Source: Seonamhaeicola sp. S2-3
GTDB lineage: Bacteria; Bacteroidota; Bacteroidia; Flavobacteriales; Flavobacteriaceae
Direction: 5' to 3'
NCBI RefSeq assembly: GCF_001971785.1
Contig: NZ_CP019389.1
Span: 1,685,001 to 1,749,000 of the forward strand
DNA length: 64,000 bases
The position numbers were made by a program, and so were the translations under genes. Of the stretch, positions 15,769 through 58,798 are shown in pieces. The notes under the pieces are model-generated. The model was not told where the DNA came from, ran no database searches, and saw only the letters and a program-made list of their open reading frames with translations. Every line of letters begins with the position of its first letter. Positions within the stretch are counted from its first letter, which is position 1.

Positions 15769-16725
15769 TTGAGCCTTAAAACAAAAAGAATACTAAAAAT
15801 TACACTCCCACTATTACTGGGAGTTTTTTTGGTCTGGTATTCTTTAAAGGCAGTTCCTTTGGCTAAAATTTATGAATATTGGCAAGCTGCCAGTAAAGAA
15901 TGGGTTTTGCTAGGTGTATTTTTTGGCTTGCTAAGTCATTTGTCTAGAGCATACCGTTGGCGTTTTCAATTGGAGCCTATGGGTTATAACATTAAATTGG
16001 GTAACAGTGTTATGGCTGTTATGGCGGCTTATTTAATCAATTACACCATACCCAGAGCAGGAGAAGTAGCTAGAGCTTCTATTTTAACTAATTACGAAGC
16101 GGTTCCTTTTGAAAAAGGCTTTGGAACTATTGTAGCAGAACGTATTGCAGACATGCTTGTAATGTTAGGTATCATTACTGTAACACTCTTTCTTCAATTC
16201 GATTTTATTTATGGCTTTTTAATAGAAAAATTTAATCCACTTAAAATCATTGTTGGTTTGGTAGGCTTACTTGTGTTAACTTTAATTTTTACCATGTTTA
16301 TTAAAAAAAGTACTTCTAAATTGGCTTTAAAAATTAAAACATTTGTAAGTGGTTTAATAGAAGGAGCTTTAAGTATTTTTAAAATGAAGAAGAAGTGGGC
16401 TTACATTTTTCATACTTTATTTATTTGGGGTATGTACGTGCTTATGTTTTATGTAACATCTTTTGCTTTAAATGAAACTTCTAACATTCCTTTTTCTGCT
16501 ATTTTAATAGGTTTTATTGCTGCTAGTTTTAGTATTGCCGCTACAAATGGCGGTATAGGTGCTTACCCGTTAGCTGTATATTTAGGGTTTTCACTTTTTG
16601 GAATAGCCGAAGCCCCTAGTATAGCTTTTGGATATATTATGTGGGCGTCTCAAACACTTTTAATTATTGTTTTTGGTGGTTTGTCTTTATTTTATCTGCC
16701 AATTTATAACAGAATAAAGAAGTAA
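15769..16725 (+). CDS. Flippase-like / lysylphosphatidylglycerol synthase transmembrane family protein
   Basis: A 318-residue polytopic membrane protein with about eight or nine helices, of the family of lysylphosphatidylglycerol-synthase membrane domains (UPF0104-like). Typical segments: 'LSHLSRAYRWRFQLEPMGY', 'AYLINYTIPRAGEVARASIL', 'TIVAERIADMLVMLGIITV' and 'AATNGGIGAYPLAVYLGF'. Only the membrane part is present; the cytoplasmic aminoacyl-transferase domain of MprF is absent, so a lipid-translocating or other role is more likely than lipid lysinylation. The start is TTG two bases after panD; the next in-frame Met is about 70 residues in and would remove conserved sequence. Confidence 0.8.
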   Translation: MSLKTKRILKITLPLLLGVFLVWYSLKAVPLAKIYEYWQAASKEWVLLGVFFGLLSHLSRAYRWRFQLEPMGYNIKLGNSVMAVMAAYLINYTIPRAGEVARASILTNYEAVPFEKGFGTIVAERIADMLVMLGIITVTLFLQFDFIYGFLIEKFNPLKIIVGLVGLLVLTLIFTMFIKKSTSKLALKIKTFVSGLIEGALSIFKMKKKWAYIFHTLFIWGMYVLMFYVTSFALNETSNIPFSAILIGFIAASFSIAATNGGIGAYPLAVYLGFSLFGIAEAPSIAFGYIMWASQTLLIIVFGGLSLFYLPIYNRIKK

Positions 16726-48490: not shown

Positions 48491-48518
48491 AAAAAATACG
48501 CACTTCTACGTATTTTTT
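48491..48518. promoter_or_regulatory. Operator-like palindrome, copy 2
   Basis: Arms AAAAAATACG and CGTATTTTTT around an 8-base centre CACTTCTA. It overlaps the stop codon of the response-regulator gene (48506-48508). Similarity with copy 1 extends past the core, toward a shared GCTATTAA on the minus strand. Confidence 0.4.
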
Positions 48519-49147
48519 AAATGGTCTTTATTTAAATTGGCCCAAATTGATAGTGAAGTGGGCTTATTATCTAAACCTAATTTAGCAACTATATTACTTC
48601 TATGCTTATCAACTGTTCTTACAGATATTGATAGTTCTTCGGCAATATCACTACTGGTTTTATTTTCAGAAATAAGTTTTACTATTTTTAATTCAGATTT
48701 TGTTAAAAGCTTAATGGCTTCTAAATGACTATCAATAGGACTAGAGTTTAGGTGTGAGGCTATTTCTTCACTAAAATAAGGTTTGTTATTTACAACATTT
48801 TCAATACAGTTTTCAATTTCTTCAATAGCAAATTCTTTTAAAATATAACCATAAACGTTAAAAGCTTTTGCTTGGTCATAAATTTCTTCTTCTTTATCAA
48901 AAGTGATTAAAATAATTTTTGTAGGTAAGTTGTTTTTCTGGCAGTCTTCGGCTATTTCTAAACCTGTTTTATAAGGCATTCTTATATCAAGAATAGCAAT
49001 TTCAGGTTTTAATTTTACTATTAAGTTGTAGGCAGACTTTCCGTCAGTGGCGCTACCAACAATATTAAACCCTTTAGAGGTTAAAAAATCAGTTAAACCC
49101 CTTAACATTAAAGGGTGGTCATCAGCGATTACTATAGTAGTATTCAT
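48506..49147 (-). CDS. LuxR/NarL-family response regulator (orphan)
   Basis: A 213-residue cytoplasmic regulator. The receiver domain (1-120) has acidic residues Asp9/Asp10, phospho-acceptor Asp54 in 'AILDIRMPYKTGLEIAEDC', and the conserved Thr/Lys region 'IILITFDKEEEIYDQA'. The C-terminal LuxR helix-turn-helix (about 148-208) reads 'LTKSELKIVKLISENKTSSD' and 'ISVRTVDKHRSNIVAKLG'. No histidine kinase is encoded nearby. It is the last gene of a minus-strand series PKD-barrel, CHAT, retropepsin, regulator, 56 bases after the retropepsin gene. An operator-like palindrome overlaps its stop. Targets are unknown. Confidence 0.93.
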   Translation of the reverse strand: MNTTIVIADDHPLMLRGLTDFLTSKGFNIVGSATDGKSAYNLIVKLKPEIAILDIRMPYKTGLEIAEDCQKNNLPTKIILITFDKEEEIYDQAKAFNVYGYILKEFAIEEIENCIENVVNNKPYFSEEIASHLNSSPIDSHLEAIKLLTKSELKIVKLISENKTSSDIAEELSISVRTVDKHRSNIVAKLGLDNKPTSLSIWANLNKDHLKNT

Positions 49148-49203: not shown

Positions 49204-49647
49204 TTACAATTTTAAATATAAATATTTCTTTTGATAATCTATTACGGCTTTACCTTTTTTTAAAATATCGGCACCAATAATACCATCTACAGGTTTAGAG
49301 TTGTGATTCATTAAGGCAGTATTAACATGCGTTAAGTTAAAAAGTACTAAAACAACCTTATTATGGCGCCATTTTCCAATTTTAACCTTATTTTTTTTAG
49401 ACATTTTAGTGTCCATGTCAATAGCGCCTGCCCCTGCAGCTTTAATAACAGAATCTTCGGCTTTTAAATTAAAAGTATCTACAGCTTCAAATCCAACACA
49501 AGAACTAGATGCTCCAGTGTCTAAAATAAAACGCCCGCGATTACCGTTAATTGAAGCTTTAATTTCAAAATGATTGGTCTTGGTAAGGTGTAATTTTATT
49601 TTAGTATAACCTTTGTCTAATAAAAATTCTTGTAGAGATTTTTCCAT
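49204..49647 (-). CDS. Retropepsin-like aspartic protease
   Basis: A 147-residue protein with one retropepsin domain: active-site 'GRFILDTGASSSCVGFEAV' (Asp43-Thr-Gly) and the late 'KPVDGIIGADILKKGKAVID' flap/psi-loop segment. Retropepsins work as homodimers, one Asp from each chain. There is no signal peptide or membrane helix, so it should be cytoplasmic. It starts five bases after the stop of the CHAT gene and precedes the LuxR regulator, making a protease/CHAT pair on opposite sides of the membrane. The substrate is unknown; a cleavable cytoplasmic regulator would be a logical target, but this is inference. Confidence 0.87.
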   Translation of the reverse strand: MEKSLQEFLLDKGYTKIKLHLTKTNHFEIKASINGNRGRFILDTGASSSCVGFEAVDTFNLKAEDSVIKAAGAGAIDMDTKMSKKNKVKIGKWRHNKVVLVLFNLTHVNTALMNHNSKPVDGIIGADILKKGKAVIDYQKKYLYLKL

Positions 49648-49652
49648 GACAC

Positions 49653-52178
49653 TTATTTATGTTTAAAACGTAAAAGTAATATAATAAGAAAGATAAATCC
49701 TAAAATTATTCCGTACAATAAATAAGATTTAGGCGTGGGTTTTGATAGTTCACCATAATACACAAAAGCACCCCAATAGTAGGGCGATTTTTTAGCATTG
49801 CTAATAGAGGGGTTTTCTAAATACTCTAATTTGCACATTTGGTTAGCATAATAAGCCGATTGTGTGTTGCTATAACTCTTATAAAACGATTGCATGATTT
49901 GAGATGTAGATAAATCGTTTATCTGCCATAATGAAAACAGTAAGTTTTTAGCTCCAGCATATTGAAAACCTCTAGCAATACTCATGGCGCCTTCTGCTTT
50001 AAAAAGTTTGCCAATACCAGTTTCGCAGGCGCTTAAAACTACTAAATTACTGTTAAGGTTAAGGCTGTATAACTCATTTACGTATAGCTTTTCATTATAA
50101 AAATCTATACTAGCAGGCTTAACAAAATTACCACTACTTGCGTGGGTAGATAAGTGCAACATGCCATAATTTTTAGCCTTTTTTATAAAGTTGGTTTTAC
50201 TTGCGTTATTATTTATTAGTATTTCAGAAGGCATTTCTTTTTTAATAGCATTGGCTTCTTGTAAAGAAAAAGAAAGATGTTTACTAGAATTTTTAAAAAC
50301 CGGAAAAACGCCTAACAACTTATTATTGGTTTTAGGTTGGTTATTGTTTAAATAAAAAAACGCACTAGAGTTATAAGCTATGTTTTGAAACTTAACCACA
50401 AAGGGCATTTTAGAGAATGACGTAGTAGTGGTTTTAGAATTTAAAAGTGTTTCAAAAGGTACAAAATTGAGTAACCCATCTGGAATAATAATGACGTTTT
50501 TATAAGCTGAAACTTCTTTGAAATTTAGTGATTGATATAGGTTAAATGCTTGCGATGTGTAATTAGAAACATTGTCATTAATTTTGGTAGCATCATCAAA
50601 AAGGTGAATGTAATTAGTAATTACTTTTTTTGCTTTGTTGGTTTCAATTAGCTTGTTTAGTTTAATGTTAGTACTAGAAATTATAAATTGATAAATGGCT
50701 TGTTTTCCATAAAAATATTCAACTAAAACCGCATTGTCTTTTAGTAATTTATTTTGCAAGTTTTGTATTGAAATTAGATTTTTAAATTCTGAATACTTTT
50801 TAGAAATAGGTGTTTTTAACGACTTAATTTTTAGGCTTATCTCGCTTAATTGCTTGCTTAAATTATTTATTTCTGTGGGTCTATTGTTTTCTAACTGTTC
50901 AATAACAAGTTTACTGGTAATATGTTCTTGTTGCTTTAAAAGATTGTATTCTTTAATTAAAAGGCTGTCTGTTGGGTGTTTTTCTAGACGTTGCTTTTTT
51001 AAAAACATTTCTTTTAAAGTGAATACTTTACTGTTTTCAGAATATTCAAAAGCTTTAAATAAAAGAGAGTCGTTTTGAGTGTTGTTAAAAGCATCAAAAA
51101 GCAAATTAATACATTTTTCACTCCTAATTCTATTATTGGTTTCATTTAAAATTTTAGCCTCTTGTGTTGTCCATGTGTTTTTTAGTAAATGAGATACATG
51201 GAAACTTAAATCGTAACTTTTTAAGGCTAATTTGGGGTTGGTTTCAATATTTGAATAAAGATCAAAAATGTCAATGAATTTATTTTCGGCATAAAGCAGT
51301 TCTTTTTTTGGTAAACTGTTAAAATTTGTGTTGGGAATAAGTGACTGTAGCGCCATTTCAAGACTCTTTAAAGCCGCTTTATTTTGGTTGTTTAAATGGT
51401 AAACTTGTGCTTCTTCAATATAAATTTGAGCTATTTCTCTTTGGGTTAAATTTTTAATTGATAATTGTTGCTTTTTGAACTTTTGAAACTCTAATAGAGC
51501 CTTTGAAAAATTACCATTTTGAAGTGCTATTTTATAATGAAGTTTGTTGTTTAAAGTTGTTTTTTCAGAAAAAGTTCCAAGCGCAATTTTACTTTCATTT
51601 TTAAGGTTAATTAACTTTTGTTTTTGGCTTTTACTAATATTAGGATTATTAATAAAATTTGAAGTGAGTTTTATAACCGTTTCATGTTTTCCTAAGGTGT
51701 AATACAGTTGCGATAAATTTATGGCTCCACTAATTTCATGTTTAAGTAGTCTCTTTTTTTTTGCTAAATAACTGTACTGTTTTATGGTGTTTTCGGCATT
51801 GGTAAAGTTACCTGTTTTGGTATATAGGTTGCCTAAAGGAATTAGGCAGCTTTCAATAATATCAAAATCTGATAGTTCTGATAAGTTGTTGTTATTGAAA
51901 CGTTTTACAGCATCTTCAAAAGTAGTAATGGCTTCTTTTAACTTAGAATGATTTTGTAAGTAGTACCCTTTATGGCTTTGTAAAAACACTAAAGCTAATT
52001 GTTCATCTTTAGTTTTTACTTGAGATTTAAATCTTAGTTCTTGTTTATTTAAAATTTGTAATGAAGCCTCATTTGGGTTAGCTATAAATGCTTCTGCAGC
52101 CACATAAATTTGTTCTTCAAGTTCCTGTGAAAAGCAAAAGCCATGGATGAGGACTAAAAAGTAAAGTAATTTTTTCAT
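49653..52178 (-). CDS. TPR-CHAT protease-like protein, exported and membrane-anchored
   Basis: An 841-residue protein with a signal peptide (1-18), a long helical TPR region (about 60-350), a helical linker (350-470) and a CHAT domain (about 480-810). CHAT is a caspase-like cysteine-protease fold; the dyad is intact, with His679 in 'GMLHLSTHASSGNF' and Cys718 in 'LVVLSACETGIGKLF'. The family motif 'AMSIARGFQYAGAKNLLFSL' follows, and one membrane helix (about 819-837) closes the protein with a short basic tail RFKHK. The catalytic domain therefore faces the periplasm. TPRs probably bind the partner or substrate. It is 44 bases after the PKD-barrel gene and five before the retropepsin gene. Confidence 0.93.
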   Translation of the reverse strand: MKKLLYFLVLIHGFCFSQELEEQIYVAAEAFIANPNEASLQILNKQELRFKSQVKTKDEQLALVFLQSHKGYYLQNHSKLKEAITTFEDAVKRFNNNNLSELSDFDIIESCLIPLGNLYTKTGNFTNAENTIKQYSYLAKKKRLLKHEISGAINLSQLYYTLGKHETVIKLTSNFINNPNISKSQKQKLINLKNESKIALGTFSEKTTLNNKLHYKIALQNGNFSKALLEFQKFKKQQLSIKNLTQREIAQIYIEEAQVYHLNNQNKAALKSLEMALQSLIPNTNFNSLPKKELLYAENKFIDIFDLYSNIETNPKLALKSYDLSFHVSHLLKNTWTTQEAKILNETNNRIRSEKCINLLFDAFNNTQNDSLLFKAFEYSENSKVFTLKEMFLKKQRLEKHPTDSLLIKEYNLLKQQEHITSKLVIEQLENNRPTEINNLSKQLSEISLKIKSLKTPISKKYSEFKNLISIQNLQNKLLKDNAVLVEYFYGKQAIYQFIISSTNIKLNKLIETNKAKKVITNYIHLFDDATKINDNVSNYTSQAFNLYQSLNFKEVSAYKNVIIIPDGLLNFVPFETLLNSKTTTTSFSKMPFVVKFQNIAYNSSAFFYLNNNQPKTNNKLLGVFPVFKNSSKHLSFSLQEANAIKKEMPSEILINNNASKTNFIKKAKNYGMLHLSTHASSGNFVKPASIDFYNEKLYVNELYSLNLNSNLVVLSACETGIGKLFKAEGAMSIARGFQYAGAKNLLFSLWQINDLSTSQIMQSFYKSYSNTQSAYYANQMCKLEYLENPSISNAKKSPYYWGAFVYYGELSKPTPKSYLLYGIILGFIFLIILLLRFKHK

Positions 52179-52222: not shown

Positions 52223-54178
52223 CTAGAATTTCCAAATGGCATAGAATTGCCAATAGTTAAAATCATTTTCAAAATTCATAATATAACGAGCGCCAAGGCT
52301 AGGGCCAATTCTGGCAAAACCTGCGGTGGCTTCAAATAAAACCCCTGTTCTTAAATTTGTAAATGAGTTTGAAAGCGAATTTTGTTCTTTGGTGCTGCTC
52401 ATTATAGGTGCATCGGGGTCTGTGCCTTCAAATTCTTCAATTGAAATATTTTGGTTTTGTTTTTCGCTAACCGAAATAGTATTTTGTAAACCAGTACCAA
52501 GTCCAATATAATTATTCACATTATATCTTAAAAGAATGGGGATATCCCAATATATATTTTCATAACTGGTGTTAGTGGTGGTGCGTTGCCTAAATCTAAA
52601 CCCTTGGGGGTCATCAATAATTTCATCGGTAACATTGGTGTTAGCATCATAAGAATGAAAATTATTCATAAGTTCTACCTGCCAATACCAACGATAAGAT
52701 TTATAAGGAGAAATGGTAGCACCTATAAAATAGCTTTCAGAATTGTTTAGGTTTCCAAACGAATTATAACCTACTTTAGCACCAACAGAAATGCCTGGTA
52801 AAAAGCGTGTAGTAGAGTAGTTGGTTATTATAGGTTCGTTTTTATCAAATATAATAGCTGTTCTGCTTTTAGTTTTCTTTTTATGGAAATCTTTGGCAAA
52901 TTTTATCTTATACTTTACAAAACCTTTTGTAGAATCATACTCTTTTACGTTTTTCTGTTCGCTACCTGGTAAGTAAATATTTTTAAAGGTGAAAATAGCT
53001 TGTTTGTCTGTAAATGTAGTGTCTAAGCAACTATATAGAACGTCTTTTTTAGGACAAATATCACATTTAGGGTACATGTCGATTACTTCTAAAGTAGATT
53101 TATCTAACATATCAGGAATATCAGTTTCCAAGCGTATAGTTCTTGCGGGTCCTTCGCCATTATTTTGAAACTTTATTTTATACTTTAGAGTTTTAAAGCG
53201 AACAAGTCTGTAGTTCATAAACGTACCGTTAGAAGACATTTTATTGGGATCGTGCGAGGTTACAATTTCCATTTCCATATCTTTAACCTTATGATTATCA
53301 TAATTAGAATCTGGTACATAAATACCACGAACTGAAATTATAGCACTGGTATCTTTTACCATTTCTGGGGTAGTTTTTAAACTAAAAAAAATGTTACGCT
53401 CTTCATTAGGTTGCATATTGTCAAATTCTAATAAACTCCAGTCTTTGTATATGCTTTGCGATTCTTGAATGGTTAAAGGTAAATTCATTTTTTCTGTAGA
53501 ATCTTGAAGTGTTAAAGCGCTTTCTACAATATCATTATTAGAAGAAGCTAAATAGGTGTTTTCATTATCTATATTATATGTATAAGCAAAACCGTTATTT
53601 GAAATGTCTTTTTCGTTATGATGTGTTCTGGTTTCAATTAATTCAAAGTTGTCATTTTTGTATTTAAGCTCGTTATAAAACAAATATATTTTACCATTTG
53701 TAACATACTCTTTTGTGTTTTTGTAACTTAAAATGACTACCATTTCTTGATCTGGAACAGGTTCTCTGTTTCGTTTTAATGTAAAATCTTCGGTCATTGA
53801 GGCTACTTCCTCAAAATCTTCAGTTACATTGCTAATGGTTATTTTTTTGGGACGAGTAGTAGGTGGTTTTCCGTTGTCATAATTATTAGTTGCCCAAAGT
53901 TTTACTTCATATTCGCCTTTGTTTTTATAAGTGTGTTTTGGGCTTTTTTCTTTGCTATAATGGCCATCGCCAAATTCCCAATGATACGTATAAAACGCTT
54001 TGGGTGCGCCAGCAATTTGGGTTAATTCTGGTGTTTGTGGTGTAAAACTAACCACATTACCATGAGTAGTATTTTTTATAGTAGCGGTTCTTGTTAAGCT
54101 ATCGGTTTCTTTAGTTTGTTGAGAAAAACCAAAAAAGGAAAAAGTAAAAACCAGAAAATAAAGTAATATTTTAGGCAT
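52223..54178 (-). CDS. PKD-domain protein with C-terminal outer-membrane barrel
   Basis: A 651-residue secreted protein: signal peptide 1-19, a PKD domain (about 40-115, 'TYHWEFGDGHYSKEKSPKHT'), a beta-rich middle, a repeat-type adhesin domain like DUF11/DUF7619 (about 320-460, 'RFKTLKYKIKFQNNGEGPAR', 'IRLETDIPDMLDKSTLEV'), and a PorT-like outer-membrane beta-barrel (about 465-651, 'GISVGAKVGYNSFG', 'IPILLRYNVNNYIGLGTG') ending in Phe (FYAIWKF). The domains would be displayed on the cell side or surface while the barrel anchors the protein. It is the first large gene of the CHAT operon, 62 bases after a 30-residue membrane peptide gene. Four cysteines cluster in 'MYPKCDICPKKDVLYSC'. Confidence 0.8.
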   Translation of the reverse strand: MPKILLYFLVFTFSFFGFSQQTKETDSLTRTATIKNTTHGNVVSFTPQTPELTQIAGAPKAFYTYHWEFGDGHYSKEKSPKHTYKNKGEYEVKLWATNNYDNGKPPTTRPKKITISNVTEDFEEVASMTEDFTLKRNREPVPDQEMVVILSYKNTKEYVTNGKIYLFYNELKYKNDNFELIETRTHHNEKDISNNGFAYTYNIDNENTYLASSNNDIVESALTLQDSTEKMNLPLTIQESQSIYKDWSLLEFDNMQPNEERNIFFSLKTTPEMVKDTSAIISVRGIYVPDSNYDNHKVKDMEMEIVTSHDPNKMSSNGTFMNYRLVRFKTLKYKIKFQNNGEGPARTIRLETDIPDMLDKSTLEVIDMYPKCDICPKKDVLYSCLDTTFTDKQAIFTFKNIYLPGSEQKNVKEYDSTKGFVKYKIKFAKDFHKKKTKSRTAIIFDKNEPIITNYSTTRFLPGISVGAKVGYNSFGNLNNSESYFIGATISPYKSYRWYWQVELMNNFHSYDANTNVTDEIIDDPQGFRFRQRTTTNTSYENIYWDIPILLRYNVNNYIGLGTGLQNTISVSEKQNQNISIEEFEGTDPDAPIMSSTKEQNSLSNSFTNLRTGVLFEATAGFARIGPSLGARYIMNFENDFNYWQFYAIWKF

Positions 54179-54239: not shown

Positions 54240-54332
54240 TTAGTAAGTTAAAATCATTACTATATTGGCAATTATTGTTAGCACAATAATTATTGTTAGT
54301 ATAACAGCCAATATATTAATACTTTTTTTCAT
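54240..54332 (-). CDS. Tiny single-helix membrane peptide (30 residues), first gene of the CHAT operon
   Basis: An ATG at 54332 opens 30 codons: MKKSINILAVILTIIIVLTI followed by IANIVMILTY, one membrane helix with a lysine pair at its head. The ATG lies 23 bases after the ATATA box of a GGGTAAC promoter element, so a leader of about 16 bases is predicted, which argues that the frame is translated. The PKD-barrel gene follows 61 bases after its stop. Similar in layout to the peptide at 48093-48194, which lies just after the same operon. No family recognised. Such peptides can act as membrane regulators or toxins, but nothing here shows which. Confidence 0.55.
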   Translation of the reverse strand: MKKSINILAVILTIIIVLTIIANIVMILTY

Positions 54333-54354: not shown

Positions 54355-54385
54355 CTATATACGCTAAGGTTGATATTTGTTACCC
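54355..54385 (-). promoter_or_regulatory. Sigma-factor-type promoter element, site 1 (CHAT operon)
   Basis: On the minus strand: GGGTAACAAA (from 54385) and TATATAG (54361-54355), with 17 bases between GGGTAAC and TATATAG. Two further elements with the same boxes and the same 17-base spacing lie upstream of the genes starting at 56775 and 57323. Confidence 0.6.
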
Positions 54386-54396
54386 ATTAAAAACAA

Positions 54397-54427
54397 AAAA
54401 GCCAGAAATTTTATATTTCTGGCTTTT
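54397..54427 (-). terminator. Terminator between the CHAT operon promoter and the IS3 element
   Basis: A 13-bp perfect stem AAAAGCCAGAAAT/ATTTCTGGCTTTT with a 5-base loop. Before the IS insertion it would have stood about 60 bases past the stop of the lipoprotein gene at 55795, so it is probably that gene's own terminator. Confidence 0.75.
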
Positions 54428-54437
54428 AATAAATAGG

Positions 54438-54462
54438 TGTCCCGTCCTAAAATAAGTTGACA
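54438..54462 (+). repeat. IS3 left inverted repeat
   Basis: TGTCCCGTCCTAAAATAAGT plus TGACA. It pairs with the right end at 20 of 25 positions or more; the first five bases differ apart from TG. Confidence 0.85.
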
Positions 54463-54477
54463 CAAAATCGACTTATT

Positions 54478-54870
54478 ATGAAAAATAAAGAACACAAGCG
54501 ATTTAAGCGCACACAACGAGATTACAATTTAGGCTTTAAATTAGCCTTGGTGTCCGAAGTAGAAAAAGGCAACTACACATACAAACAGATTCAAAAAGCT
54601 TATGGTATCCAAGGCAGGAGTACCGTTTTGGTATGGTTAAGAAAATATGGTACTTTAGATTGGAGTAAACCAAACTTTAATAATTTGCCTAAAGAAAAAG
54701 AAACACCAGCCCAAAGGATAAAGCGTTTAGAACGAGAACTAGAAGATGAGCGATTAAAGAACTTATTGCTCAATACAATGATAGATGTATCAGACAAACA
54801 ATTTGGTACTTCTATTAGAAAAAAGCTTTTATCCCAACAATCCAAATCATCAAACAAGACAAGCAAGTAG
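54478..54870 (+). CDS. IS3-family transposase OrfA
   Basis: A 130-residue DNA-binding subunit. I start it at the ATG at 54478 rather than a TTG 21 bases upstream, which lies in the inverted repeat. A helix-turn-helix is visible ('KLALVSEVEKGNYTYKQIQK', 'AYGIQGRSTVLVWLRKYG') and a leucine-zipper-like coiled coil follows ('RIKRLERELEDERLKNLLLN'), used for multimerisation. Residues after about 116 are read only if no frameshift occurs: an A6G slippery run at 54819-54825 lets ribosomes slip -1 into orfB. Confidence 0.93.
   Translation: MKNKEHKRFKRTQRDYNLGFKLALVSEVEKGNYTYKQIQKAYGIQGRSTVLVWLRKYGTLDWSKPNFNNLPKEKETPAQRIKRLERELEDERLKNLLLNTMIDVSDKQFGTSIRKKLLSQQSKSSNKTSK
54819..54825 (+). promoter_or_regulatory. 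Programmed -1 frameshift slippery site
   Basis: AAAAAAG, the A6G type used in IS3 elements. The orfB frame has a TAG just before it (54816-54818) and is open from 54819 on, so slipping gives an OrfAB fusion of about 409 residues (116 from orfA, 293 from orfB). Confidence 0.8.
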
Positions 54871-54890
54871 CCATTGCGCACTCATGTAGA

Positions 54891-55706
54891 TTGTTAGGGA
54901 TAAGTAGACAAGCTGTTTATCAAGCTCAAAAACGTAAAGAAGCACGTATCAAAGAACTCTCAAAGATAAAATCCTTAGTACTTGTTATTCGTAGAGATAT
55001 GCCAAGACTGGGTACACGTAAACTCTACTACTTGCTAAAGCCAGAGTTTGATAAACATCAAATAAAAATAGGGAGAGATGCCTTATTTGCTTATTTAAAA
55101 ACAGAACATTTATTAATAACACCAAAGAAAAACTATACCAAAACCACAAACTCAAAACATTGGCTTAAAAAGCACCCTAACCTACTAAAAGACATCCAAC
55201 CTAATAGGCCAGAACATGTGTTTGTAAGTGATATTACCTACATAAAAAGCAGAGAAAAAACACATTATTTATCTTTGGTAACAGATGCTTATAGTAGAAA
55301 AATAGTTGGATATCAATTAAGTGATGATATGAGTGCAAAAAATGTAGTCAAAGCTTTTAATATGGCCATAAAGAAAAGAGATACAAATAATGAAATTATC
55401 CATCATTCTGATCGTGGACTACAGTATTGTGCTTTTGTCTATCAAAAGGCTTTAAGGGAAAACAACGTAATACCATCAATGACAGATGGTTATGATTGCT
55501 ACCAAAACGCATTAGCAGAGCGCATTAATGGAATTTTAAAACAAGAGTTCTTAATTTATAAGTGCAATAATGGAAGAGAGCTTGAACGGTTAATCAAAGA
55601 ATCTATAGAAACTTATAACAATAAAAGACCGCATTTGAGCCTTAACATGAAAACACCTAACTTTATACACAACAAAAAACCTGAGAAGTTAAATTCTCAG
55701 GTTTAA
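54891..55706 (+). CDS. IS3-family transposase OrfB (DDE integrase domain)
   Basis: The catalytic subunit. The DDE triad is complete: Asp in 'EHVFVSDITYIKSREKTHYL', Asp in 'EIIHHSDRGLQYCAFVYQ' and Glu in 'NALAERINGILKQEFLIYK'. The N-terminal helix-turn-helix-like segment is 'RLGTRKLYYLLKPEFDKHQI'. Read alone it would need a TTG start at 54891, giving 271 residues; the natural product is more likely the -1 fusion with OrfA, entered at 54825 with 'AFIPTIQIIKQDKQVAIAHS'. A hairpin overlaps the stop codon. Confidence 0.95.
   Translation: MLGISRQAVYQAQKRKEARIKELSKIKSLVLVIRRDMPRLGTRKLYYLLKPEFDKHQIKIGRDALFAYLKTEHLLITPKKNYTKTTNSKHWLKKHPNLLKDIQPNRPEHVFVSDITYIKSREKTHYLSLVTDAYSRKIVGYQLSDDMSAKNVVKAFNMAIKKRDTNNEIIHHSDRGLQYCAFVYQKALRENNVIPSMTDGYDCYQNALAERINGILKQEFLIYKCNNGRELERLIKESIETYNNKRPHLSLNMKTPNFIHNKKPEKLNSQV
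55677..55704 (+). terminator. Hairpin at the end of orfB
   Basis: An 11-bp stem AAACCTGAGAA/TTCTCAGGTTT with a 6-base loop, overlapping the last codons of orfB. The T tail is short, so it may stabilise mRNA or stop transcription in either direction. Confidence 0.6.
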
Positions 55707-55722
55707 TTTAATTTATAAAAAC

Positions 55723-55747
55723 TGTCAACCTATTTTAGGACGACTCA
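55723..55747 (-). repeat. IS3 right inverted repeat
   Basis: On the minus strand TGAGTCGTCCTAAAATAGGT plus TGACA, matching the left end. Confidence 0.85.
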
Positions 55748-55794
55748 AGGTTAATAATTTGGGAAACCATTTAAAGTAGGTGATGAAAATGTAT

Positions 55795-56775
55795 TTATGG
55801 TAGATTATTAATAATGTTTACTAGTTGAGATTCTGTTACTACACTAGTTTCGTTTTCAGTGAAAGTAATTGTTTCGTTTTCTGCTATGGTTACACCTTTT
55901 ATAGCGTATTTGTAGTTGCCGTTTTCTTCGGTTACAAAAATTACATGACATTCTAAACCAATTGGAATTTGTCCGTAATGTTCACTAAATAACCCTGTGT
56001 TAGAATCGTAAGTATCTAAGTAGGCTAATGCGTTATCTTCCCCATCGTATGATAAGTAGATATTACAGTTTGTGTTGTCATAACCTTCAGGTGCATCTAC
56101 TAAAATAGTTGTTTTTTCTCTGGGGTCGTTATAAAATCTATCTACGTTAGTCCAACCAAAGTTATCAAGAAAAGCGTAGTATAAGTTTCCTTCAAAGAAA
56201 ATGCCACCTTCGCCATTAGCGCCATCGCGTTCGTCTTCTTCCCAAGCAAGATTACCATCTTCATCAATAGTACCAGTCCATAAAATCATGTCGTTGTCAA
56301 TACCACCAGTTAATTCTGAAGGAATACCTAATTGGATGTCGCAAGAAATATCTAAAGGCGTTCCGTTTTGTGTAGCTTCAATAAAAAATTCGCCACCAGA
56401 AATTAATAGGGCTTTATCGCCATTAGGCATAATTCCCATAGTAGGTTTGTTTGTAGTAAGCATAGAACCTTTATCAAAAAGTTCAATATATTCTAAATCT
56501 ACAGTACCGGTTACGGGGTCTCCGTTAAGGGTTAAACAGCTACTGTTAATTCCTATAGATACACCGTTGTCTGAGGTTAGATTTATCCAACCGTCTTCTG
56601 CATTAAATTGAAAATTTTGCGTATTGTTGATAAGAGCTTCTTCAAAAAGCGCGTTGAATTCTTCTTGTGATGGTGCTTCAAAAGTTGGGTTTTCACCATC
56701 GTCTGATTTTGTACAACTTGTAAAGATTAAAGTTGTCATTAATAAAAGTCCGAAAATGTTCTTTAAAGTGTTCAT
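55795..56775 (-). CDS. Lipoprotein with ZU5-like beta domain (function unknown)
   Basis: A 326-residue lipoprotein (Cys21 after 'LIFTS'). A beta-sandwich-like domain at about 65-145 shows strands 'GVSIGINSSCLTLNGDPVTG' and 'VDLEYIELFDKGSMLTTNKP', then 'GGEFFIEATQNGTPL', a pattern like ZU5/GAIN-related domains, but the match is loose. The rest contains acidic Asp/Gly turns ('WEEDERDGANGEGG') and 'YYAFLDNFGWTNVDRFYND'. It is preceded by a GGGTAAC-N17-TATATAA element, the second of three, so it probably belongs to the same regulon as the CHAT operon. The IS3 element sits 47 bases after its stop and separates it from its likely terminator. Confidence 0.75.
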   Translation of the reverse strand: MNTLKNIFGLLLMTTLIFTSCTKSDDGENPTFEAPSQEEFNALFEEALINNTQNFQFNAEDGWINLTSDNGVSIGINSSCLTLNGDPVTGTVDLEYIELFDKGSMLTTNKPTMGIMPNGDKALLISGGEFFIEATQNGTPLDISCDIQLGIPSELTGGIDNDMILWTGTIDEDGNLAWEEDERDGANGEGGIFFEGNLYYAFLDNFGWTNVDRFYNDPREKTTILVDAPEGYDNTNCNIYLSYDGEDNALAYLDTYDSNTGLFSEHYGQIPIGLECHVIFVTEENGNYKYAIKGVTIAENETITFTENETSVVTESQLVNIINNLP

Positions 56776-56805
56776 AATAGATTTGTTTTTAATTGTTATT
56801 CATGT

Positions 56806-56836
56806 TTATATAAACAGGGTAATTATTTTGTTACCC
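56806..56836 (-). promoter_or_regulatory. Sigma-factor-type promoter element, site 2 (lipoprotein gene)
   Basis: On the minus strand GGGTAACAAAA (from 56836) and TATATAA (56812-56806), with 17 bases between GGGTAAC and TATATAA. The gene starts 30 bases further, at 56775. The GGGTAA box is also one arm of a hairpin (56812-56841). Confidence 0.6.
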
Positions 56837-56841
56837 TGTTT
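56812..56841 (-). terminator. Terminator-like hairpin after the two-repeat secreted protein
   Basis: An 11-bp perfect stem AAACAGGGTAA/TTACCCTGTTT with an 8-base loop. It lies about 40 bases after the stop at 56880 and overlaps promoter element site 2, so the GGGTAAC box can be hidden in RNA/DNA structure. Confidence 0.55.
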
Positions 56842-56853
56842 TTTGGTTTTTTT

Positions 56854-56878
56854 TCACTTCGACTGTGCTTAGTGTGAC
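56854..56878. repeat. Short flavobacterial-type intergenic repeat
   Basis: CACTTCGACTGTGCTTAGTG followed by TGACA. From general knowledge, near copies (CACTTCGACTncGCTCAGTGTGACA) recur in many flavobacterial spacers. It immediately precedes the 3' end of the gene at 56880. Confidence 0.45.
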
Positions 56879-56879
56879 A

Positions 56880-57323
56880 TTATTGTTGAGGTTGACTAAT
56901 AATTATTTTGTTTACAATAGCATCGCCAGAGGCTACTAATGCTATCATTTTATGTGCATAAGCTTCAGATGAAGAATACCCTCTTGCAGTACCAGATGTG
57001 GTTTCAACTTCCCAGAAATAGTTTCTTTTGTTGCTGGTATTAACTTCAGACTTTAAAACAAAATAACTTTTAATTTCTTTTGCGGTTACAACTTCGCCAG
57101 AGCTAGCTAAGTCAATCATTTTTTTAGCTTGTTCTAGAGATAAAGAGGTTCCAGAATAAGTGCTTTTTGCAGTTTCAACTTTCCACTCAAAAACTTGAGC
57201 AATGTTGTTTCTTGTAATTTCAACCACTTCATTTAATGTGTTAAGGGTCTTGTTTTCATTTGTAGCATTTAGGTTTAATATTGATAATACTACGGTTCCG
57301 ATAATTAAAATTGATTTTTTCAT
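56880..57323 (-). CDS. Small secreted protein made of two repeats
   Basis: A 147-residue protein with a signal peptide (1-20, ending LNLNA). The mature part is two copies of a ~42-residue unit: copy 1 about 45-86 ('FEWKVETAKSTYSGTSLSLE', 'QAKKMIDLASSGEVVTAKEI') and copy 2 about 102-143 ('YFWEVETTSGTARGYSSSEA', 'YAHKMIALVASGDAIVNKII'). Each begins with an aromatic-W-x-VET strand, then Ser/Thr/Gly, then a helix with KMI-x-L-ASSG. No family recognised. It starts 94 bases after the GGGTAAC box (site 3), is divergent from the sigma-factor gene, and so is a good candidate target or sensor of that sigma system. Confidence 0.75.
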   Translation of the reverse strand: MKKSILIIGTVVLSILNLNATNENKTLNTLNEVVEITRNNIAQVFEWKVETAKSTYSGTSLSLEQAKKMIDLASSGEVVTAKEIKSYFVLKSEVNTSNKRNYFWEVETTSGTARGYSSSEAYAHKMIALVASGDAIVNKIIISQPQQ

Positions 57324-57388
57324 GATTTCTAAATTTTTTATGGATTAATTAAATTTTTGTTTCGTCTTAATTTTTGACTGTTACACCC

Positions 57389-57419
57389 TTATATCAAAAC
57401 CATTTAAAATTTGTTACCC
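57389..57419 (-). promoter_or_regulatory. Sigma-factor-type promoter element, site 3 (two-repeat secreted protein)
   Basis: On the minus strand GGGTAACAAAT (from 57419) and GATATAA (57395-57389), with 17 bases between GGGTAAC and GATATAA. It lies in the 141-base gap shared with the divergent sigma-factor gene. A second, imperfect copy (GGGTGTAACAG) lies further toward the gene. Confidence 0.6.
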
Positions 57420-57464: not shown

Positions 57465-58046
57465 ATGAGCGAAAAAAAAATTCATGAAGACCAGAAATAC
57501 ATAGATGGATTGTTAAAAAACAACGCATTTATTATTCAATCTATTTATGACAAGTTTGCCCCTAAAGTGGTTAATTATATAAAGCAGAATAGCGGAAGTA
57601 CAGATGAAGCTCAAGACGTAATTCAAGAAACACTTATAGCTATTTACAATCAAGCAAGTCAAAAAAAATTACAACTTACATGCCCTTTTGACGCATATTT
57701 TTTTCTGTTATGTAAGCGTAAATGGCTCAATGAGTTAAAAAAATCTTCAAATAAAGAGGTAACAATTAATGAGGAAGTATTATCTAAAGATGACGAGGCT
57801 CAAGAACTAGCTTTTGAAACATCAGTATTTAGTGAAAAACAGGCCCTTTTTTCAGAAATGTTTAATAAACTAGGAAAAGCTTGTAAAGATTTATTAACGG
57901 CTACTTTTAAAATAAAATCTATGGAAGAAGTAGCAAAAAGTTTAGGTGTAACCTATGCCTATGCTAGAAAGAAAAAATCTTTATGTATTGGTAAATTAAC
58001 AAAAATGGTTCAAGGCTCACCTAAATTTAACCAGCTTAATAATTAA
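57465..58046 (+). CDS. Sigma-70-family RNA polymerase sigma factor (ECF-like)
   Basis: A 193-residue sigma factor with only regions 2 and 4. Region 2 (about 20-85): 'FIIQSIYDKFAPKVVNYIKQ', 'STDEAQDVIQETLIAIYNQA', 'FDAYFFLLCKRKWLNELKKS'. Region 4 (about 140-185): 'LLTATFKIKSMEEVAKSLGV', 'TYAYARKKKSLCIGKLTKMV', the helix-turn-helix that would read the GGGTAAC box. The next gene, five bases after its stop, encodes a membrane TPR protein likely to hold it at the membrane. Bacteroidetes sigma/TPR pairs are often placed beside CHAT proteins, and a CHAT operon is 3 kb away here. Confidence 0.92.
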   Translation: MSEKKIHEDQKYIDGLLKNNAFIIQSIYDKFAPKVVNYIKQNSGSTDEAQDVIQETLIAIYNQASQKKLQLTCPFDAYFFLLCKRKWLNELKKSSNKEVTINEEVLSKDDEAQELAFETSVFSEKQALFSEMFNKLGKACKDLLTATFKIKSMEEVAKSLGVTYAYARKKKSLCIGKLTKMVQGSPKFNQLNN

Positions 58047-58051
58047 TTGTC

Positions 58052-58798
58052 ATGGAAGATAAAAATTACATATTATTTGAATCCTATTTATCGGGAGCGT
58101 TATCTAAAGAAGAAATGGCCAATTTTGAATTACAATTACAAACCGAACCAGAATTTAATCAAGCCTTCAACACCTATAAAGAGTTGTCTTCTTTTTTAGC
58201 AAATAAGTTTGAAAACGAAGCAGCTTCAGCAGCATTTAAAGAGAACGTAAAAAAGATTTCAGATAAGTATTTTAATCAAGAAGAAACAAAATTAGAACAA
58301 AAGCCAAAACCAAAAGTATTTCCATTTTATAAATATGCAATTGCAGCCTGTGTTCTTTTGTTTATTGGGTTATTTACATTCAATCAATTCTCAAACCCAA
58401 ACTTTAGTGATTATAATAGCTATGAAACCATTAGTTTAACTGTTAGAGGTTCGCAAAACACTTTACTAAAAACTGCTGAAAATGCATTTAATACCAAAGA
58501 TTTTGCTAAAGCAGAAGAGGCATTTAGCCAACTTTTAAAACAAGATACAGCAAACAAAGAATTTCAACTTTATAAAGGTATAGCTTTAATAGAATTAGAT
58601 AAATTTAACGAAGCCGATGCCTTATTAGAAAAGCTTTCAAAAGAAGATTCTGCTTTTAAAAACGATGCTATTTGGTATTTAGGGTTAAGTAAACTAAAGC
58701 AAAAAGATTATGAGGCATCTTTAGAAATCTTAAAAACACTACCAGAAGACGCCAACAATTACAACAAGGCACAAAAACTAATAAAGAAACTAGATTAA
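58052..58798 (+). CDS. Membrane TPR protein, putative anti-sigma partner
   Basis: A 248-residue protein. The N-terminal ~85 residues are cytoplasmic and start like small anti-sigma domains ('YILFESYLSGALSKEEMANF', 'ELQLQTEPEFNQAFNTYKE'). One membrane helix lies at about 91-110 ('YAIAACVLLFIGLFTFNQF') and the rest is outside, with three to four TPR units ('LLKTAENAFNTKDFAKAEEA', 'EFQLYKGIALIELDKFNEAD', 'AIWYLGLSKLKQKDYEASLE'). The layout fits a sensor that binds the sigma factor inside and a ligand or the secreted proteins outside. It is translated right after the sigma gene. The anti-sigma role is inferred, not shown. Confidence 0.78.
   Translation: MEDKNYILFESYLSGALSKEEMANFELQLQTEPEFNQAFNTYKELSSFLANKFENEAASAAFKENVKKISDKYFNQEETKLEQKPKPKVFPFYKYAIAACVLLFIGLFTFNQFSNPNFSDYNSYETISLTVRGSQNTLLKTAENAFNTKDFAKAEEAFSQLLKQDTANKEFQLYKGIALIELDKFNEADALLEKLSKEDSAFKNDAIWYLGLSKLKQKDYEASLEILKTLPEDANNYNKAQKLIKKLD

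Follow-up and report, generated by a model that had tools for sequence, protein, structure and literature searches.

Within a 64,000-nucleotide stretch of the Seonamhaeicola sp. S2-3 genome (the window; assembly GCF_001971785.1, contig NZ_CP019389.1, positions 1,685,001 to 1,749,000), three copies of a two-box promoter-like element stand on the strand opposite to a gene for an extracytoplasmic function (ECF) sigma factor. We consider it very probable that the three elements are promoters of this sigma factor at position 57465, which would be held by a TPR membrane protein and freed by an envelope signal. The features that carry this reading are the following, in window coordinates:

57389 to 57419, minus strand: element 1, GGGTAACAAA-N14-GATATAA, upstream of the gene for a two-repeat exported protein.
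56806 to 56836, minus strand: element 2, GGGTAACAAA-N14-TATATAA, upstream of a lipoprotein gene.
54355 to 54385, minus strand: element 3, GGGTAACAAA-N14-TATATAG, upstream of a unit encoding a 30-residue peptide, a PKD protein and a CHAT protein.
57465 to 58046, plus strand: ECF sigma factor of 193 amino acids, above cut-off for Pfam Sigma70_r2 and TIGR02937.
58052 to 58798, plus strand: putative membrane anti-sigma factor with a TPR domain, from profile scans, a structure model and an alignment.

An earlier note on this DNA had described three minus-strand copies, and all three were recovered, with matches of the core pattern at 54385-54356, 56836-56807 and 57419-57390, all within 3.1 kb. KATATA starts exactly 17 bases after GGGTAAC in each of them, as claimed; the spacing in that note's title (N14-ATATA) was off by one and should read N14-KATATA or N15-ATATA. 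The -35 box of element 1 lies 46 bases from the start codon of the sigma gene. GGGTAAC occurs once more in the window, at 15999-16005 on the plus strand, but there it lies inside an open reading frame (ORF) of 318 amino acids, so that no further copy falls in a spacer. The three downstream units also match their description, namely a 30-residue ORF followed by PKD and CHAT proteins, a lipoprotein gene, and an exported-looking protein of 147 amino acids. When the whole 3.75-Mb genome was searched, as the note had proposed, exact GGGTAAC-N17-KATATA was not scattered but confined to the three window sites. A longer pattern with up to 2 mismatches gave 16 matches versus 14 for its reversed form. 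The 13 degenerate matches beyond the three were rejected as further targets, as every one overlaps an ORF of more than 110 amino acids (one is the sigma gene itself); a possible exception is L138, which has 2 mismatches and, besides overlapping an ORF, lies 196 nt upstream of another with a signal-like start. Judged by sequence, the clear sites in this genome are all local to the sigma locus.

To compare the element across relatives we used 83 loci, comprising the best 80 of 82 sigma-relative loci from a scan of genome contigs, the window, and two more. We took the longest ORFs as genes and recognised exported proteins and lipoproteins by home-made signal rules. The set contained 142 exact elements, and all 142 lie on the strand divergent from the sigma gene. 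At least one exact element was present in 76 of the 83 loci, and the 7 others all have one or more genes preceded by a form with one mismatch. In the same loci the reversed and the permuted pattern gave no match, and five Markov shuffles gave 0, 0, 0, 0 and 1. For 134 elements a gene could be assigned within 600 nt downstream, the nearest being a lipoprotein gene (71), a two-repeat gene (49), a PKD gene (13) or a peptide gene (1). Scanning spacings from 10 to 25 returned 145 GGGTAACA sites, none of them on the sigma strand; 141 have a spacing of 17, one of 18 and three of 25. Even a Pedobacter locus whose sigma factor is 46% identical carries the element.

Since the pattern itself selects the boxes, column conservation inside exact matches was not used for them. 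Instead, we employed a motif-independent scan of 200 bases upstream and 30 bases into each gene, scoring the best site over 16 fixed positions. Sites with at most one mismatch in 16 were found upstream of 58/58 two-repeat, 67/79 lipoprotein and 13/78 PKD genes, versus none upstream of CHAT (0/77), sigma (own strand, 0/82) or TPR genes (0/81). One shuffle per upstream region left at least 3 mismatches throughout. A third promoter, before the PKD unit, is thus present in a minority of loci.

These results leave next to no room for a chance similarity of AT-rich spacers. GGGTAAC is indeed no commoner in the window than expected (4 versus 4.37), as such a reading would have it. It is contradicted by the absence of pattern matches in 100 dinucleotide shuffles, by the uniform divergent strand, by the uniqueness of the three sites in the genome and by the motif-independent scan. 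Just as negligible, in our view, is the idea that mobile or repeated DNA came to lie between these genes by accident. Three copies at such close quarters and an IS3 element nearby would suit it, but spacers and flanks vary while boxes and spacing are kept, and the element occurs at many unlinked places in other genomes.

If the elements were bound by something other than a sigma factor, they could serve as operators for a different DNA-binding protein, such as the LuxR-type response regulator whose gene is part of the conserved block in many loci; two boxes at a fixed spacing would also be compatible with an operator. We find this improbable. The element is asymmetric, its orientation to the gene is fixed and its second box is AT-rich and -10-like. 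Start codons usually lie 20-70 nt past the second box; the median distance from KATATA is 31 nt for lipoprotein genes and 61 nt for two-repeat genes. Furthermore, the Pedobacter locus and several others carry the element with no regulator homologue detected in the retrieved DNA, some of these loci ending early.

The strongest evidence here tying the element to this particular sigma factor is its co-occurrence with the sigma ortholog in sequenced genomes. Among 59 genomes (the source and its relatives), five encode an ortholog (66-100% identity) and together have 12 exact matches, all with GGGTAACAA. Such GGGTAACAA elements were present in 5/5 genomes with the ortholog versus 0/54 without it; the reversed pattern gave 14 matches over all 59. 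When 296 genomes of the phylum were searched, the ortholog turned up in 14 more (E up to 8.3e-40; G353 a partial match). All 14 carry the exact element, in some cases at distal sites, versus none of 8 comparison genomes, and the reversed pattern matched 4 times over the 22 genomes of this second set. Three comparison genomes (G190, G197 and G290) encode no closer relative than a weak paralog, at E of about 1e-26 to 1e-29, and gave no match.

Exact matches were also counted in 76 whole genomes with the ortholog, giving 208 versus 14 for the reversed pattern. 129 of them are local to the sigma locus and 79 distal, and many relatives thus have predicted distant sites, unlike this genome. We examined 78 of the 79 distal sites and found 67 of them in intergenic DNA, no more than 400 nt before a gene. 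The products of 63 of these 67 genes are predicted to be exported and 42 pass our lipoprotein rule. For comparison, both rules were applied to 233 other genes of these stretches: the signal rule, which is crude and also picks up membrane proteins, selected 119 and the lipoprotein rule 45; several of the stretches are lipoprotein islands. The predicted distal targets include CarboxypepD_reg-like lipoproteins of about 583 amino acids (18), 146-residue-type lipoproteins (10), DUF4082 lipoproteins (9), OmpA-like proteins (8) and smaller groups. In other genera, and in a second family of the class, members of these groups again follow the element. Many begin with a cysteine soon followed by a run of aspartates. 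This start resembles the signal by which lipoproteins of Bacteroidota are exported to the cell surface. The link to the sigma factor at 57465, which the earlier note had inferred, therefore finds support in strand, motif-independent scan, co-occurrence and predicted distal targets.

Two further observations concern these distal sites. In several genera, two or more elements occur in lipoprotein islands that also encode a Y_Y_Y/Reg_prop histidine kinase and a LytTR regulator (L149-L152, L175, L187, L207, L209). A DUF4082 lipoprotein gene with the element was found in L155-L160, L162-L164, L258 and L259; in L155-L160 and L162-L164 it sits between sucD-like and fabG-like genes, which were named by eye.

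Several points weigh against assigning the elements to this sigma factor and its proposed control. The genomes are related and their counts are not independent samples. Eight of the 142 local elements have no assigned gene, and in 12/79 lipoprotein and 65/78 PKD upstream regions even the best site has more than one mismatch. Of the 78 distal sites, 7 fall in coding sequence and 4 have no assigned gene. The 54 relatives without the ortholog have 10 exact-pattern matches, none with GGGTAACAA and at the level of the reversed control, and not all matches of the second set are promoter-like (L245 and L254 are coding; L246 lies before a regulator-like ORF). Matches of the TPR protein to anti-sigma models are far under curated cut-offs, and no anti-sigma entry is among the 50 Foldseek matches listed for it, which cover the TPR part. 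Finally, in three of ten paralogous sigma cassettes (L046, L228, L229) a GGGTAAC-like box stands shortly before the sigma factor's own start, on the sigma strand. Another ECF sigma factor could therefore share part of the specificity, and these boxes possibly reflect autoregulation of the paralogs.

The last point also favours the view that a different ECF sigma factor, such as a paralog with a similar -35 preference, uses the three elements, and this genome does encode a second sigma factor, 30% identical. We rate this view a little lower still than an operator. Genomes with the paralog only have no GGGTAACAA elements, G190, G197 and G290 being without any match, and the elements cluster at the ortholog (129 of 208).

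The sigma factor at 57465 itself scored 28.9 bits for Sigma70_r2 (cut-off 24) and 54.1 bits for TIGR02937 (cut-off 42.9; residues 26-180). No match to region 4 was listed in the Pfam scan, and with 53.1 bits the protein is under the cut-off (126.4) of the Bacteroidetes sigma family TIGR02985. Its neighbour, the TPR membrane protein, probably holds it inactive. The structure model (mean predicted local distance difference test, pLDDT, 80.1) comprises N-terminal helices, a membrane helix at about residues 93-112 and a TPR domain at 137-247, and the hydrophobic segment is present in 73/80 relatives. The protein would span the membrane once, with its N-terminal part presumably in the cytoplasm and the TPR part in the periplasm. 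The anti-sigma model NF052375 gave 29.3 bits for the protein, far under its cut-off of 100, and matched 13 of 26 relatives at E up to 1e-3, likewise sub-threshold. Autoregulation of the sigma gene through the element was rejected, as none of 82 sigma upstream regions has an own-strand site with up to 4 mismatches; no clear housekeeping promoter for the gene was identified in 50 loci either. One sigma ortholog has decayed, with stops (L019 / L050, G009:C21), beside an open TPR gene; that genome is 80% complete and without an exact element.

We propose that the TPR protein would keep the sigma factor inactive through its cytoplasmic N-terminal helices, while the membrane helix and periplasmic TPR domain would couple it to the envelope, where a signal would release it. 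RNA polymerase with the freed sigma factor would read a -35 box GGGTAACAA and a -10 box KATATAA, KATATA starting 17 bp after GGGTAAC, and would turn on the divergent block: the two-repeat exported protein, the surface-type lipoprotein and the micropeptide / PKD / TPR-CHAT unit. In many relatives it would also drive distant lipoprotein and OmpA-like genes through the same promoter.

Classic modules of an ECF sigma factor and a membrane anti-sigma factor are RpoE-RseA and SigW-RsiW, which PMC10028731 names. As in these, the sigma gene here adjoins a gene for a protein predicted to join cytoplasmic N-terminal helices to a periplasmic domain through a single membrane helix, and the promoters have two boxes at a fixed spacing. 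Unlike in these, the putative periplasmic domain is of TPR type, no element lies on the sigma strand and the targets are mostly of surface type. Only 6% of Bacteroidetes ECF sigma factors are associated with a protein carrying a class I anti-sigma domain, according to PMC7406223, so a TPR-type membrane partner is informative. The Bacteroides anti-sigma factor Dma and its ECF21 sigma factor Das are similar, being a membrane protein with one helix and an N-terminal part that binds sigma, as the N-terminal helices here putatively do, and a Bacteroidota ECF sigma factor. In Dma, a disordered tether leads to a C-terminal outer-membrane beta-barrel, where the present protein has a TPR domain (PMC13088901). 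A predicted ECF promoter class is also reported for another flavobacterium, Flavobacterium psychrophilum (SM6), where the excerpted source describes no GGGTAAC/KATATAA motif (PMC9723704). Our literature searches turned up no earlier account of the present promoter class; none of the listed papers on GGGTAAC, sigma factors and promoters is on Bacteroidota, judged by title. The results provide a defined promoter class and its likely sigma factor for bacteria with few mapped alternative sigma regulons, with a candidate target list of surface-type lipoproteins, OmpA-like proteins, a CHAT protein and membrane micropeptides.

The TPR-CHAT protein may be an activator of the sigma factor, by analogy with Csx29 acting on Csx30 and CASP-sigma. 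Csx29, a TPR-CHAT protease, cuts Csx30 and thereby relieves inhibition of an ECF sigma factor (PMC10028731). In both systems a TPR-CHAT protein, a putative sigma inhibitor and an ECF sigma factor are co-encoded, and the locus holds three sigma motifs; here, by contrast with Craspase, the CHAT protein carries a membrane helix at its C-terminus, the putative inhibitor is membrane-bound and cleavage is conjectural (PMC10028731). None of the ten locus proteins scanned is a Cas protein, Cas7-11 included; the search for Cas7-11 was confined to these ten. Among seven distant paralogous cassettes, the sigma gene has a long CHAT gene next to it in all (7/7), and a TPR gene was detected in 6/7. An eighth locus is a decayed ortholog, where no CHAT gene was detected. 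By the same analogy the CHAT protein would cut the periplasmic TPR part of the anti-sigma factor. The fuller version, in which a periplasmic, membrane-anchored and caspase-like TPR-CHAT protease unconnected with CRISPR cuts the anti-sigma factor, frees the sigma factor and so raises surface lipoproteins and CHAT itself, with the 30-residue peptide tuning the switch, is tentative, and we are inclined to doubt it. Were it true, the Craspase circuit of CHAT protein, sigma inhibitor and ECF sigma factor would be one branch of a wide Bacteroidota envelope-sensing group. The recurring neighbourhood of ECF sigma factor, TPR membrane protein and TPR-CHAT protein makes caspase-like control of an anti-sigma factor outside CRISPR directly testable. 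Our search for literature on a CHAT domain and a sigma factor in Flavobacter returned nothing.

The divergent block and its conserved neighbours, with an inverted repeat at element 2, are as follows:

56880 to 57323, minus strand: two-repeat exported protein of 147 amino acids, predicted target, from ORF, locus comparison and upstream scan.
56812 to 56841, minus strand: inverted repeat overlapping element 2, predicted RNA hairpin of -14.3 kcal/mol, z -5.14.
55795 to 56775, minus strand: lipoprotein of 326 amino acids, predicted target, Cys21 invariant in 28 aligned relatives.
54240 to 54332, minus strand: one-helix peptide of 30 amino acids, 23 nt after the -10 box of element 3.
52223 to 54178, minus strand: PKD-DUF7619-DUF7849 protein of 651 amino acids, from the Pfam scan.
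49653 to 52178, minus strand: TPR-CHAT protein of 841 amino acids with His679/Cys718 and a C-terminal membrane helix, CHAT 132.6 bits.
49204 to 49647, minus strand: retropepsin-like aspartyl protease, neighbour in the conserved block, not assigned to a transcript.
48506 to 49147, minus strand: LuxR-type response regulator, neighbour in the conserved block, not assigned to a transcript.

The TPR-CHAT protein is likely exported, as its sequence suggests. Its catalytic His and Cys are kept in 75/76 aligned rows, with one gap per column. A C-terminal hydrophobic helix is found in 74/76 rows, and an N-terminal hydrophobic stretch exceeds the threshold in 34/76. The lipoprotein model is mostly beta (mean pLDDT 82.7); its Foldseek matches, ankyrin ZU5 among them, were all weaker than E 0.001 and were not used.

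The inverted repeat covers the -35 box, which is included in its 5' arm, and the spacer of the lipoprotein promoter; elements 1 and 3 gave no fold in the same RNA folding test. In 61 non-proximal lipoprotein promoters a mean of 8.5 of 11 positions pair, versus 3.7-5.4 in six shifted registers, and at least 6 of 7 core pairs are present in 32/61 of these promoters versus 0/56 sigma-proximal elements. One position is T-A in 27, T-G in 22 and unpaired in 12 of the 61, and two others show compensatory changes. We rejected a palindromic operator for a dimer, as pairing is limited to the non-proximal lipoprotein promoters and the T-G pairs and compensatory changes suit an RNA hairpin better. Perhaps the hairpin is the terminator of the two-repeat transcript, in which case terminator and next promoter would share bases.

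A one-helix peptide of about 30 residues, of two sequence types, also precedes the PKD gene in relatives (L053-L057, L065-L067, L069, L073-L075, L077, L086, L099, L119). The third promoter is present in exact or relaxed form in 19 loci, and in 13 of these a one-helix peptide of 28-35 residues starts 5-29 bases past the -10 box; 58 loci in the same scan have no third promoter, and some of them still encode a similar peptide there (for example L053, L056 and L073). Unnormalised pairwise differences amount to 629 synonymous and 1876 non-synonymous for type A, and to 71 and 157 for type B.

The IS3-family element (54438-55747) lies between the lipoprotein gene and element 3, upstream of the latter, which it leaves uncut; its ends and a flanking AGG duplication were judged by eye. 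Locus L041 has a gap of 158 bp at that place. Beside the insertion, an open stretch on the plus strand (55758-55811, by eye) ends in a stop and is perhaps a remnant of another gene.

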